From the NCBI RefSeq assembly GCF_900128515.1, contig NZ_FQTP01000007.1, positions 1 through 37,106 on the forward strand: 37,106 nt of DNA. Direction: 5' to 3'. Source of the DNA: Bathymodiolus heckerae thiotrophic gill symbiont (GTDB lineage: Bacteria > Pseudomonadota > Gammaproteobacteria > PS1 > Pseudothioglobaceae). The notes beneath the pieces were generated by a model. It saw only the letters and a program-made list of their open reading frames with translations. It did not search any database and was not told the origin of the DNA. Below, in pieces: positions 5,520 through 14,639 of the stretch. The position numbers were made by a program, and so were the translations under genes. Position 1 is the stretch's first letter. Every line of letters begins with the position of its first letter.

Positions 5520-6194
5520 ATGAGTATTAGGAAAATTAAATTTACCAATGATGAATATTATCACGTGTTTAATCGGGGTGTGGATAGACGTATTATTTTC
5601 AACACGAAAGATCAGCAGAGGTATTTTCTTAGTCGGTTACGCTTGCTGAATACTACTGATAGTAGAAAATATATTACCAATAAGAGGAGTCGATGTAAAA
5701 ATAAAGAGACTCTTGGAGAAGGTGAGAGTTTGGTGAGTATTGTAGCTTATTGTTTATTGCCTAATCATTTTCATTTATTGCTCAAACAAAATGTTGATAA
5801 CGGTATTTCACAGTTTATGCAAAGATTGGGTACGGCTTATACCATGTTTTTCAATCAAGAGGAAAATCGCAGTGGCAGCCTGTTTCAAGGAAAATTTAAA
5901 GCCACACATCTCAGCGGTGATTTTGCCTTACCAGTGTCATCTGCCTATATTAATCTTAACTATGCACATCATAAAATAAACACTAACAAAAACTTAGTTA
6001 AATCTAGTTTGTGTGATTATTTACCTGATGCAGGCAAGGCCTGCACCAATGATATTTGTAATCAAGAAGAGATTGACGATATTGTTAATGAAATTGGTGG
6101 ATTGTCTGAATACAGGCAATTTATTAAGAATGCATCTAAAACTTTTGTTGACAATAAAGGAAATACCGTAAATTTAAATGATTATGAATTTTGA
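5520..6194 (+). CDS. REP-associated tyrosine transposase (RAYT, Y1/HUH family)
   Basis: 224-residue Y1-type transposase related to IS200/IS605 TnpA. Its family cleaves and joins single-stranded DNA at hairpin-forming repeats. Visible landmarks: N-terminal YYHVFNRGVDRRIIF (residues 13-27), the HUH motif in LLPNHFHLLL (H83, H85), and the candidate nucleophile Tyr Y107 in GTAYTMFFN. The conserved G-S-LFQGKFKA segment (119-128) and a YINLNYAHH segment follow. All key residues are present, so it may be active. Residues 171-175 (AGKAC) are encoded by an internal copy of the palindrome it presumably recognises. The stop codon lies within the right palindrome. ATG 5520 has only a weak ribosome site (CAGGTA). 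Confidence 0.92.
   Translation: MSIRKIKFTNDEYYHVFNRGVDRRIIFNTKDQQRYFLSRLRLLNTTDSRKYITNKRSRCKNKETLGEGESLVSIVAYCLLPNHFHLLLKQNVDNGISQFMQRLGTAYTMFFNQEENRSGSLFQGKFKATHLSGDFALPVSSAYINLNYAHHKINTNKNLVKSSLCDYLPDAGKACTNDICNQEEIDDIVNEIGGLSEYRQFIKNASKTFVDNKGNTVNLNDYEF
6029..6045 (+). repeat. Palindromic repeat copy 4 (inside the RAYT ORF)
   Basis: Core GCAGGCAAGGCCTGC at 6030-6044, with one extra pairing base on each side (T6029, A6045). It is read in frame as A-G-K-A-C at RAYT residues 171-175, the same frame and peptide as in pgeF. It lies in the less conserved C-terminal part of the transposase. Confidence 0.93.
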
Positions 6195-10390: not shown

Positions 10391-11134
10391 ATGGAAAGAT
10401 TACAAAAATTAATTGCAACAGCGGGCTACGGTTCACGTCGTTGGGCAGAAAGACTCATCGAACAAGGTCGAATTGAGGTTAATAACAAAACCGCTCAAAT
10501 TGGCGATAAATGCGAAATAACTGATAAAGTCAAAATTGATAGCAGACCTGTTGATCTTGAGCGCTATAAAGAAGAAGAAACCAAGGTGATTATCCTTAAC
10601 AAGCAGGCAGGCGTTATTTGCTCGAATAAGGATGATGAAGGTCGAAAAAATGTTTATAGCTTATTGCCAAAAGAATCACGCTGGGTGATGGTGGGGCGTT
10701 TAGATCTTAATACATCGGGTTTATTGTTGTTTACTAACAATGGTGATTTAGCTAATAAGCTCATGCATCCAAGTTCTGAAATTGATCGTGAATATGCAGT
10801 TCGTGTGTTGGGTCAGGTGGAAAATGAAGATATCAAACAATTAACCACAGGTATTGAGCTAGAAGATGGCTTTGCTAGATTTGCGCGTGTGATTGTTGGT
10901 GGTGGCGAAGGCGCTAATCGCTGGTATAAGGTTGTGCTTAAGGAAGGTAAAAAGCGCGAAGTTAGACGTCTTTGGGAGGCGTTAGGTTTTAAGGTGTCAC
11001 GCCTTATCCGTACACGCTTTGGTGAAATTCGTCTACCTGAAAACCTTAAAGCCAATCAATACGATTATTTAAAGCCTGGCCAAGTAAAGTTATTGTTAAA
11101 TTCTGTAAATCTTGAGTTTAATCATAAAAAATAA
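10391..11134 (+). CDS. rluB: 23S rRNA pseudouridine synthase RluB
   Basis: 247 residues, RsuA/RluB/E/F family. The N-terminal S4 domain (MERLQKLIATAGYGSRRWAERLIEQGRIEVNNK) binds RNA. The catalytic domain carries GRLDLNTSGLLLFTNNGDLANKLMHP with the catalytic Asp at D105, and later KEGKKREVRRLWEALGFKVSRLIR. RluB is favoured over RsuA by the S4 start and the REVRRLWEALG sequence; RluE/F are less likely. E. coli RluB has a longer basic tail, absent here. It lies downstream of trpS, probably sharing its promoter. Confidence 0.88.
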   Translation: MERLQKLIATAGYGSRRWAERLIEQGRIEVNNKTAQIGDKCEITDKVKIDSRPVDLERYKEEETKVIILNKQAGVICSNKDDEGRKNVYSLLPKESRWVMVGRLDLNTSGLLLFTNNGDLANKLMHPSSEIDREYAVRVLGQVENEDIKQLTTGIELEDGFARFARVIVGGGEGANRWYKVVLKEGKKREVRRLWEALGFKVSRLIRTRFGEIRLPENLKANQYDYLKPGQVKLLLNSVNLEFNHKK

Positions 11135-11175
11135 TTAATTTAAATCAATTATTTATCAAAGATTGTTGTTAGAAT
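11135..11175 (+). promoter_or_regulatory. Possible FNR-type promoter of small ORF 1
   Basis: A -10-like TAGAAT lies at 11170-11175. A candidate FNR site TTAAT-TTAA-ATCAA lies at 11135-11148, one mismatch from TTGAT-N4-ATCAA. Its centre is 28.5 bp before the -10, nearly the same geometry as for small ORF 2. The mismatch removes the important G of the left half-site, and the region is AT-rich and also forms an AT-only hairpin after rluB. Support therefore comes mainly from the parallel with the second copy. Confidence 0.4.
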
Positions 11176-11208: not shown

Positions 11209-11325
11209 ATGATTATGAATGAGCTAAATAACGATATCGTTTTTTATATGAGTATTACAATGGTTGCTTTGACCGTTGTTGTTGGCATTGTCTTCGGTAT
11301 CGCCAAGGCAAGAATTAGAACTTAG
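11209..11325 (+). CDS. Small membrane protein, paralogue 1
   Basis: 38 residues starting MIMNELNNDIVFYMSITM, with one membrane span (about residues 11-31) and a basic tail (KARIRT). A ribosome site AAGAGAG lies 5-6 nt before ATG. Over codons 1-19 it differs from small ORF 2 by seven synonymous single-base changes and only one amino-acid change (Thr17/Ser). That is strong evidence of translation and purifying selection. Function is unknown. The shape (acidic/Asn N-terminus, one span, basic end) recalls accessory subunits of membrane respiratory complexes or DUF3149-type peptides, but I cannot assign a family. The topology is probably N-out/C-in by the positive-inside rule. Confidence 0.8.
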   Translation: MIMNELNNDIVFYMSITMVALTVVVGIVFGIAKARIRT

Positions 11326-11399
11326 TTTCATTGCTCTTTTTAGAATGATAGTTTGTTTTCACCTGATTTTTATTAATTTTTGACTTAATTTGTCCAATT

Positions 11400-11441
11400 T
11401 TGACTTGGATCAAGTTTTTTATCTAACTCTATTGATAGAAT
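11400..11441 (+). promoter_or_regulatory. Class II FNR-like promoter of small ORF 2
   Basis: TTGAC-TTGG-ATCAA at 11400-11413 matches the FNR/ANR consensus TTGAT-N4-ATCAA with one change. A -10-like TAGAAT lies at 11436-11441. If transcription starts 7 nt after the -10 (11448), the site is centred at -41.5, the classical position for class II FNR activation. The -35 hexamer is otherwise poor, as expected for an activated promoter. The leader ends with AAAGAGGGG, a strong ribosome site before ATG 11478. Confidence 0.68.
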
Positions 11442-11477
11442 GCCTCTGTTATTAATTAAATAAAGAGGGGTTTTACT

Positions 11478-11600
11478 ATGATCATGAATGAGTTAAACAA
11501 CGACATTGTTTTTTACATGAGCATTTCGATGGTTGTATTGGCGATGGTTAGTTTTGTTATTTTCGCATTTGGGAAAAAATTTAAAATCCTTAAGCGTTAA
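11478..11600 (+). CDS. Small membrane protein, paralogue 2
   Basis: 40 residues, MIMNELNNDIVFYMSISM followed by a membrane span (about 11-31) and a basic tail GKKFKILKR. The first 19 residues are identical to paralogue 1 except Ser17; the C-terminal halves have diverged. The ribosome site AAAGAGGGG is 7 nt before the ATG. The upstream promoter carries the better FNR-like box, so expression under oxygen limitation is likely. Function unrecognised. Conservation is concentrated at the N-terminus and start of the span, suggesting that this part contacts a common partner. Confidence 0.82.
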   Translation: MIMNELNNDIVFYMSISMVVLAMVSFVIFAFGKKFKILKR

Positions 11601-11667
11601 ATTCCTAAAATTAATAGTTTGTGCCCTTCTCTTGTTAAGATTAATGAGGGGGGGGTGAGTTGCGCTT

Positions 11668-11775
11668 ATTAATGAATTAAATACTAATAGTGCCTTCTGG
11701 GCGTCAATATTATTTATGGCCGCTTCATTGGTTTTCGCGGTCTATTTAAAAATTTATTTATCGTCAAAAAAATAG
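11668..11775 (+). CDS. Third small paralogue, start codon unclear
   Basis: 35 codons reading INELNTNSAFWASILFMAASLVFAVYLKIYLSSKK, aligning with (M)NELNND...FYMS of the two upstream proteins and again giving one membrane span and a basic tail. Where the paralogues have two ATG codons this copy has GCG and ATT, and an in-frame TGA lies at 11656-11658. Either translation begins at the rare codon ATT (11668), 12 nt after a GAGGGGGGGG tract that could act as a ribosome site, or the gene is decaying. No other frame connects it to an ATG. It probably shares the transcript of paralogue 2. Confidence 0.45.
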   Translation: MNELNTNSAFWASILFMAASLVFAVYLKIYLSSKK

Positions 11776-11870: not shown

Positions 11871-14639
11871 ATGTCTGACTATAAGCCCACTTTAAACCTA
11901 CCTGCCACTAAGTTTGCCATGAAAGCAAATCTTTCAAATCGTGAAGGTGAATTTCTTAAAAAATGGCAAGACGATGATTTGTATGCTCAGGTTCGTGCGC
12001 ACAATCAAGGTAAGCCAAAATTCGTTTTGCACGATGGCCCTCCTTATGCGAATGGAGACATTCATATTGGTCATGCGGTTAATAAGGTTTTAAAGGATAT
12101 TATTGTTAAGTCAAAATCTTTATCAGGTTTTGATGCGCCGTACGTGCCTGGTTGGGATTGTCATGGCTTACCGATTGAACTTAATGTTGAAAAGAAAAAA
12201 GGCAAAGTCGGTGTTAAGATTGATGCCAATACTTTTAGAGCAGAATGTCGTAAATACGCAGATACCCAAGTAGCCAAACAAAAAGTTGATTTTCAACGTT
12301 TGGGTATTTTGGCTGATTGGAACAATCCTTATCTAACTAAAGATTTTCAATATGAGGCTGATATTGTTCGTGCTTTAGGAAAAATTGTTGAAAATGGCCA
12401 TGTTACTAAAGGCTATAAGCCAGTGCATTGGTGTACAGAGTGTGGTTCAGCATTAGCAGAAGCTGAAGTTGAGTACAAAGATAAAAAATCAGATGCGATT
12501 GACGTTAAATTCAAAATTATTGATGATTCAATCTTTAAGGTTGATAAGTCAGTTTCTGTGGTTATTTGGACTACCACCCCTTGGACGCTACCTGCAAATG
12601 AAGCAGTAGCACTGCATCCTGAGCTTAGCTATGTATTGGCTGATACGGGTGATGAATATTTGTTATTAGCTCAAGATTTGGCAGAAGCTGCATTATCTCG
12701 TTATGAGCTGGAAGCAAACATTTTATCTGAAGTTTATTTAGGTGATGAGCTTGAAGGTCTCCAGGTTCAGCATCCATTTTATGACAAACAAGTACCTATT
12801 GTTTTAGGTGATCATGTAACCACAGATGCAGGTACAGGTGCGGTTCACACAGCGCCGGCACATGGTCAGGAAGACTTTGTTGTTGGCAAGCAATATGATT
12901 TGCCAGTTAATTGTCCAGTTGATGGGCGTGGTGTATTTTTCGAAGACACTGAACTGCTAGCTGGACAGTTTATTTTTAAGGCCAATGCTAGTGTTATTGA
13001 AATTTTAGAAAATGCAAACACCTTGGTTAAGCACGATCCACTGGTGCATTCGTACCCACATTGTTGGCGCCATAAAACCCCGGTTATTTTTAGAGCAACG
13101 CCACAATGGTTTGTTTCTATGCAGGATAACGGTTTAAGAGATGCGGTTAATACCGAAATCCCTAAAGTGGATTGGATTCCTGATTGGGGTAAAAAGCGCA
13201 TTGAATTAATGGTGGGCAATCGACCAGATTGGTGTATTTCTCGTCAGCGTTTTTGGGGTGTGCCAATCACCTTGTTTACCCACAAACAAACAGATGAGCT
13301 ACATCCAAATACTAAAGAATTATTCGTCAGTGTTTCAGCCATGATTGAAGAAAATGGTATTGAGGCTTGGTTTGAAACTGATATTAAAGATCTATTAGGT
13401 GCTGATGCTGATGATTATGAAAAAGCCACTGATACGCTAGATGTATGGTTTGACTCTGGTGTGAGTCATTTTGCAGTGTTAAAGGCTAGAGAGGATTTGG
13501 CGGATGTGGCCGATTTATACTTGGAGGGCTCTGATCAGCATCGTGGCTGGTTCCAGTCGTCGCTCATTTCATCAGTTGCTATTAATGGCAAGGTGCCATA
13601 CAAGCAGGTGTTAACACATGGATTTACGGTTGATAAAGACGGTAAGAAAATGAGTAAATCATTGGGCAATGTCATGAGTCCGCAAAAGGTCATTAATAAC
13701 TTAGGTGCTGATATTTTGCGTTTGTGGATTGCCTCAACTGATTACACCGGTGAGATGACAGTCTCAGATGAAATCTTAAAGCGTTCAGCAGATTCGTATC
13801 GCCGCATTCGTAACACTGTGCGTTTTATGCTGGCTAATACGAGCGGTTTTAATCCAGCACAGCATACGATAACAACAACAGACATGCTAGATTTGGATAG
13901 ATGGATTGTTGCTAAAACAGCTGATTTGCAAGTGCAAATTTTAGAGGCTTACAATCAATATAATTTCCATCATGCGATCCAGTTAATTTTGAATTTTTGT
14001 AGTAATGATTTAGGTGGATTCTACCTAGATGTTATTAAAGATAGACAATATACTACGCAAGAAAATTCAAGAGCACGCCGTAGTGCACAAACTGCACTCA
14101 ACCATATATTAGAAGCGATGGTTAAATGGTTGTCTCCAGTTTTATCGTATACCGCTGAAGAAGTTTGGCAAAGTATGCCAAGTGAAAAAATCAGTAGTAT
14201 CTTTTTAACTGAGTGGTATACACAATTGGCATCGAATTACGATAATACTGCCATCGAAGTAGCTAGAAATATCAGTCCATTCATTCGCAAACAAATGGAA
14301 GGTATGCGTAACGATAAAATTATCGGCTCTTCATTGGATGCTGAAGTTGATTTGTATTGTGATGAACAAGTATATAACGCACTAAGTCAACTTGGCGATG
14401 AATTGCGTTTTGTTTTTATTACTTCTTATGCCAAAATCCATCCACTAAGTGAAAAAACAAATACTTGTATTGAGGCAGGTGAAGGTGTGTTTATTGAAGT
14501 GAGTAAATCATCACATGAAAAGTGTGTGCGCTGTTGGCATCATCGTGCTGATGTTGGTCAGCATGCCGAACATGAAGAATTGTGCACACGCTGTGTTGAA
14601 AATATTGCTGGTGATGGTGAGCAAAGGAATTACGCCTAA
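11871..14639 (+). CDS. ileS: Isoleucyl-tRNA synthetase
   Basis: 922-residue class I synthetase. HIGH is at residues 65-68 ([16 protein letters not shown]) and KMSKS at 593-597 ([11 protein letters not shown]). The CP1 editing domain is recognisable by [14 protein letters not shown] and [10 protein letters not shown]. The anticodon-binding domain ([17 protein letters not shown]) precedes the C-terminal zinc finger with C885, C888 (CVRCW) and C905, C908 (CTRC). This is the typical bacterial IleS with a zinc end, of normal length (E. coli 938). Often lspA follows ileS in proteobacteria; here aroB starts on the base after the stop codon. Confidence 0.98.

Follow-up and report, generated by a model that had tools for sequence, protein, structure and literature searches.

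Single-helix membrane proteins encoded between rluB and ileS in Thioglobus and SUP05 bacteria are probable accessory subunits of the cbb3 oxidase

The stretch of DNA analysed here (the window) comprises 37,106 nucleotides of contig NZ_FQTP01000007.1 from the Bathymodiolus heckerae thiotrophic gill symbiont. It carries trpS together with two genes that we name from their sequence, an rluB-type pseudouridine synthase gene and ileS, which border a 736-nt gap. Within this gap lie three small open reading frames and the promoter-like elements of two of them, all on the forward strand. Elsewhere in the window, the product of an ORF at 5520-6194 (MSIRKIKFTNDEYYHVFNRGVDRRIIF...) resembles a REP-associated tyrosine (Y1) transposase. 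The features of the gap and its borders are as follows.

10391-11134, forward strand: presumed rluB-type pseudouridine synthase gene, left border
11135-11148, forward strand: FNR-like box TTAATTTAAATCAA of copy 1, 9/10 match, centre 31 nt from the centre of the -10 TAGAAT
11170-11175, forward strand: -10-like TAGAAT of copy 1
11209-11325, forward strand: small ORF copy 1 (type A1), 38 aa, MIMNELNNDIVFYMSITMVALTVVVGIVFGIAKARIRT
11400-11413, forward strand: FNR-like box TTGACTTGGATCAA of copy 2, centre 32 nt from the -10 centre
11436-11441, forward strand: -10-like TAGAAT of copy 2
11478-11600, forward strand: small ORF copy 2 (type A, the most widely conserved), 40 aa, MIMNELNNDIVFYMSISMVVLAMVSFVIFAFGKKFKILKR
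11668-11775, forward strand: copy 3 (type B), INELNTNSAFWASILFMAASLVFAVYLKIYLSSKK, frame intact, ATG lost, ATT as the only near-cognate start
11871-14639, forward strand: presumed ileS, right border

Copies 1 and 2 each begin with ATG preceded by a purine-rich sequence of the ribosome-binding type. As the first-pass annotation of this DNA had noticed, their N-termini are shared: the first 19 codons differ by seven silent codon differences and a single Thr (ACA) to Ser (TCG) exchange. These changes amount to 9 of 57 nucleotides, and none of 100,000 trials that placed nine random nucleotide changes in the 57 nt yielded one amino acid change or fewer. The copies, described as tandem, lie 269 nt apart, and copies 1 and 2 each possess their own promoter-like region. 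The third, diverged copy that the same annotation reported is real as an open frame (open from 11659 to 11772, with TAG at 11773-11775), but no in-frame ATG, GTG or TTG start for it occurs in the window. The sequence reads GCG CTT where the orthologues read ATG CCT, an eight-G run lies immediately upstream, and a near-cognate ATT is found at 11668. Either copy 3 initiates at this ATT (AUU) or it was silenced recently; its functional status is uncertain and it may not be functional in this genome.

Each of the 12 genomes examined from the genus carries intact orthologues, one to three per genome and always within the rluB-ileS gap. The congeners of the window genome include Candidatus Thioglobus (with Ca. 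T. pontius) and SUP05. Copies across the genus sort into three types, namely A (copy 2), A1 (copy 1) and B (copy 3, in which FW replaces FY); orthologues of A1 are restricted to three genomes (G002, G004 and G009). Nearly all members share the motif NELN-x-D, and all have one hydrophobic segment. Pooled pairwise dN/dS values of 0.163 for type A, 0.135 for A1 and 0.193 for B, well below 1, together with the intact frames in relatives, demonstrate at the level of sequence that these small ORFs are coding and under purifying selection, as had been proposed from the silent divergence alone. The ORFs of the window are thus real genes of a family that lacks a Pfam or NCBIfam model, and the initial failure to recognise a family was borne out: neither the window proteins nor their relatives described below match any such model above its cut-off. 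Their description as membrane proteins likewise agrees with the hydrophobic segment and with an AlphaFold2 model of copy 2, in which residues 10-39 form one long helix (mean pLDDT 82). We infer from the charge bias an N-out/C-in topology. A profile search of the PDB returned only chance helix matches (best E = 0.33).

The first homologue outside the Thioglobus family was found in a Piscirickettsiaceae record (L066), where it lies between ccoP and ccoG and adjoins ccoH- and ccoI-like genes. Matches with E <= 0.01 occur in 57 of the 62 genomes of this order, which is probably Thiomicrospirales, at a single place per genome except in one, where a second match falls inside a large ORF. Every one of the 29 loci read from the order has the gene in the ccoP-ccoG slot. 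A class-wide search then turned up nine genomes from other families with a small ORF in this slot; most of its matches with E above about 0.0015 fell within large ORFs, and we regarded these weak matches as chance. When the profile was weighted towards those distant members, a second search added 16 more. Of 26 further genomes, which represent about 18 other gammaproteobacterial families, 25 thus have the slot occupied. One match (L147), at a contig edge and with a neighbour other than ccoG, was left out of the support. Representative neighbours were identified as ccoP (TIGR00782) and ccoG (TIGR02745) with E values from 1e-60 to 1e-133. The association with terminal oxidase genes, suggested at first only as something to look for, is therefore found directly, in the form of relatives that sit in a cbb3 operon. 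Our literature searches turned up no account of a small gene in the ccoP-ccoG interval.

A profile derived solely from the members in the Piscirickettsiaceae order scores copies 1, 2 and 3 at 42.9, 46.4 and 16.6 bits, respectively, and none of 1000 shuffles of each reaches these scores. By sequence, the link of copies 1 and 2 to the members in that order is strong. The proposed relation onward to the most distant slot members, which have MDAVVIGSILSVVGS... or MNDAVFWGSIGAVV... instead of the NELN start, rests on profile matches and the identical operon slot. Intact-frame matches were obtained in about 100 genomes in total.

The window genome encodes ccoN (650.6 bits) with ccoO, ccoQ and ccoP in one operon. 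No small gene follows ccoP there; the small genes are at rluB-ileS, far from the cco genes. An ordinary CcoQ is present between ccoO and ccoP, and we accordingly rejected the possibility that the small proteins replace CcoQ. Across 83 genomes of the Thioglobus family, an intact copy is found in 17, of which 16 also have ccoN, and the single exception, in which ccoN was not found, is 85% complete. A further 33 genomes have ccoN but no intact copy and 33 have neither. The association between intact copy and ccoN (Fisher p = 7e-4) is uncorrected for kinship, and shared descent inflates the count.

The family contains three cbb3 lineages. CcoN proteins of the window genome's lineage share 81-83% identity with the CcoN of L066 (82% for the window genome itself), whereas those of the other two lineages are 51-53% and 66% identical to it. 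Among the genomes whose CcoN was read, intact copies accompany the first lineage only and none occur with the others. In the first-lineage loci read, ccoP is followed by neither ccoG nor a small gene, which fits a gene that has left the operon. Outside its own lineage, CcoN sequences 46-58% identical to that of the window genome (L208-L223) are spread across genera of one family, and the presence of three cbb3 lineages across these genera suggests exchange of whole oxidases. Several relatives with the same CcoN type, such as G078, G055 and G045, have no detected copy, and broken or decayed small genes (L043, L044, L045, L079) occur in the symbiont-like genomes G047, G051 and G053; the protein is therefore not essential for the oxidase, and it is dispensable in the genomes with broken copies. 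Those genomes are single-contig assemblies of 1.2-1.4 Mb, possibly host-associated symbionts in which erosion is under way.

We next consider the promoters. Of 16 type A genes, drawn from four genera, 15 have an FNR-like box (a sequence close to TTGAT-N4-ATCAA or TTGAC-N4-GTCAA) centred 31-32 nt from the centre of a TAGAAT or TACAAT element; in 300 shuffled sets this arrangement arose a mean of 0.52 times and at most 5 times. Class II activator sites of FNR lie about 32 nt upstream of the -10, measured from centre to centre, and the type A promoters match this pattern. A perfect FNR box (TTGATTTATATCAA) lies in the ccoN promoter of the window genome. Copy 3 has no FNR-like box. For copy 1, three congeners (G002, G004, G009) have a perfect box (TTGATTTAAATCAA or TTGATTCAAATCAA), yet its distance from the TAGAAT centre is about 18-20 nt rather than 31 nt as in the window, so the spacing is not conserved. 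In G002 and G009 this palindrome reads AAAACTTGATTTAAATCAAGTTTTT; its position would suit repression, or it may be the terminator of rluB. Given the differing spacing and the possible terminator, we make no claim of FNR activation for copy 1. FNR-type proteins with Cys-x2-Cys are encoded by four congeners (L196, L197, L199, L200), their best named matches being FnrL and Fnr. A search of the window genome detected no FNR-type regulator and only an FtrB-like member of the Crp/Fnr family. A literature search for SUP05 with cbb3 and fnr returned work on SAR11 only.

Since relatives lie inside the cbb3 cluster of other Gammaproteobacteria, the small proteins are most likely helper subunits of cbb3. 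The family, its operon slot, its promoter pattern and its link to one cbb3 lineage are established by sequence comparison, and we infer from there a physical association with the enzyme. We regard an association of the family with cbb3 as very probable, and we favor, with good but lesser confidence, the reading that its members are single-helix accessory subunits or assembly factors that work like CcoM, and that in Thioglobus the gene was duplicated and left the operon. CcoM is an accessory small subunit that stabilizes or assembles the cbb3 oxidase of Pseudomonas (PMC10433244; PMC8267372). Both CcoM (Pseudomonas stutzeri; NF041600; PDB 5djq chain N) and the window proteins are cbb3-linked and 36-40 aa long, with one transmembrane helix, an acidic N-side and a basic C-side, and the genes of both stand apart from the cco operon and have an Anr/FNR-type box. 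The ccoM gene is an orphan in both Pseudomonas-type genomes that were read, with the boxes TTGACATCGGTCAA upstream in L166 and TTGACGAGTATCAA and TTGACCCAGGTCAG in L167. Unlike ccoM, the present gene lies within the operon, between ccoP and ccoG, in most lineages and is duplicated in Thioglobus. By analogy, a stabilizing or assembly role is likely. CcoQ/FixQ is another small single-helix component of cbb3 that differs from the family in both slot and sequence. CydX/CbdX are small single-helix accessory subunits of a different terminal oxidase, cytochrome bd; they show no sequence similarity to the family, CydX scoring at most 2.5 bits with its profiles.

The likeness to CcoM raises the question of common descent. 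True orthology to CcoM, with divergence past recognition, would account for the same size, the single helix and its D-x-V-V/F-aromatic start, and for the orphan location and Anr/FNR-type box found in Pseudomonas-type genomes as well; one ccoP-ccoG member even matches NF041600 in register, at 9.9 bits. The window proteins, in contrast, have no match to NF041600 (cut-off 40 bits), nothing in the window genome matches it at E <= 1, and only 2 of 369 genomes of the class exceed the cut-off. CcoM itself scores against the profiles of this family little or no better than shuffled CcoM (38 to 446 of 1000 shuffles reach its score in most tests, whereas the two best tests have 11 and 19), so that the comparison with 5djq_N stays mostly within the range of shuffles, with weak in-register similarity. 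Because the sequence tests do not support common descent, we do not class the family as CcoM, and orthology, although a serious contender, seems to us the less probable origin. A quite different kinship is hinted at by FixP_N (PF14715), the N-terminal helix of CcoP. This segment binds CcoH during assembly and runs N-in, with the c-type haem domain outside. It shares with the window family an ELNN-aromatic start of the helix, and the NELNND..FY/FW of the small proteins locally resembles RELNNRPPRWY in the CcoP of the same genome, as if they derived from or mimicked the segment and competed with or replaced it. Identity with FixP_N was nevertheless rejected, since the match is confined to copy 3 and reaches 14.3 bits against a curated cut-off of 24.9 (11.8 bits in the genome search). 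The charge bias moreover suggests C-in, opposite to the CcoP helix, the window proteins are not fused to a cytochrome, and the slot is also occupied by members that lack the NELN motif, so that we consider derivation from FixP_N very improbable. A second FixP_N-like match (L022, G000:C30:9441-9521; 20.6 bits, below cut-off) falls inside the ORF of a 283-aa membrane protein beside an RluC-like gene and is probably due to chance.

It could also be argued that the Thioglobus proteins are FNR-regulated but have lost the link to cbb3 and serve another target, such as a different respiratory complex, or act as stress peptides. Relocation to rluB-ileS, expansion to three types and the many targets of FNR regulons would agree with such a change of partner. 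The restriction of the intact gene to one cbb3 lineage in the genomes read, one incomplete genome aside, would then be unexpected, and we judge this explanation unlikely. The short length of the ORFs and the lack of a Pfam or NCBIfam model might even suggest chance frames, or a structured RNA with an incidental reading frame. Values of dN/dS of 0.13-0.19 in three sets of orthologues, the silent divergence between the copies and the roughly one hundred genomes with intact frames refute this, as far as sequence can show.

The accessory-subunit reading suggests the following course of events. The ancestral gene would have stood in the ccoP-ccoG slot of the oxidase operon, its place in most Gammaproteobacteria found to have it. 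In Thioglobus and SUP05 it would have left the operon for the rluB-ileS gap and given rise by duplication to two or three types (A, A1 and B). At low oxygen, a regulator of the FNR family would switch on the small genes together with ccoNOQP. The peptide would then insert N-out/C-in and pack onto the oxidase as an extra transmembrane helix, which, like Pseudomonas CcoM, would stabilize cbb3 or aid its assembly. A bolder extension, which we hold to be rather improbable, is that one cbb3 oxidase can take up A, A1 or B in exchange for one another as its small subunit, with oxygen setting the proportions of the three. FNR would activate type A through its class II spacing, while A1 would be repressed where the palindrome overlaps the promoter spacer, as in three congeners. 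If this were true, the affinity or stability of the oxidase would be tuned by swapping a helix of 38-40 residues.

Microaerophiles, among them the SUP05 bacteria that live in oxygen minimum zones, depend chiefly on cbb3 oxidases to reduce oxygen with high affinity. For annotators, the family provides a profile for an easily missed gene. Its fixed place in the operon across many gammaproteobacterial families suggests that a CcoM-like helix is far commoner than the Pseudomonas-restricted CcoM, and the duplicated, FNR-box-linked copies of Thioglobus may offer a test case for the tuning of respiration to oxygen by such helices.
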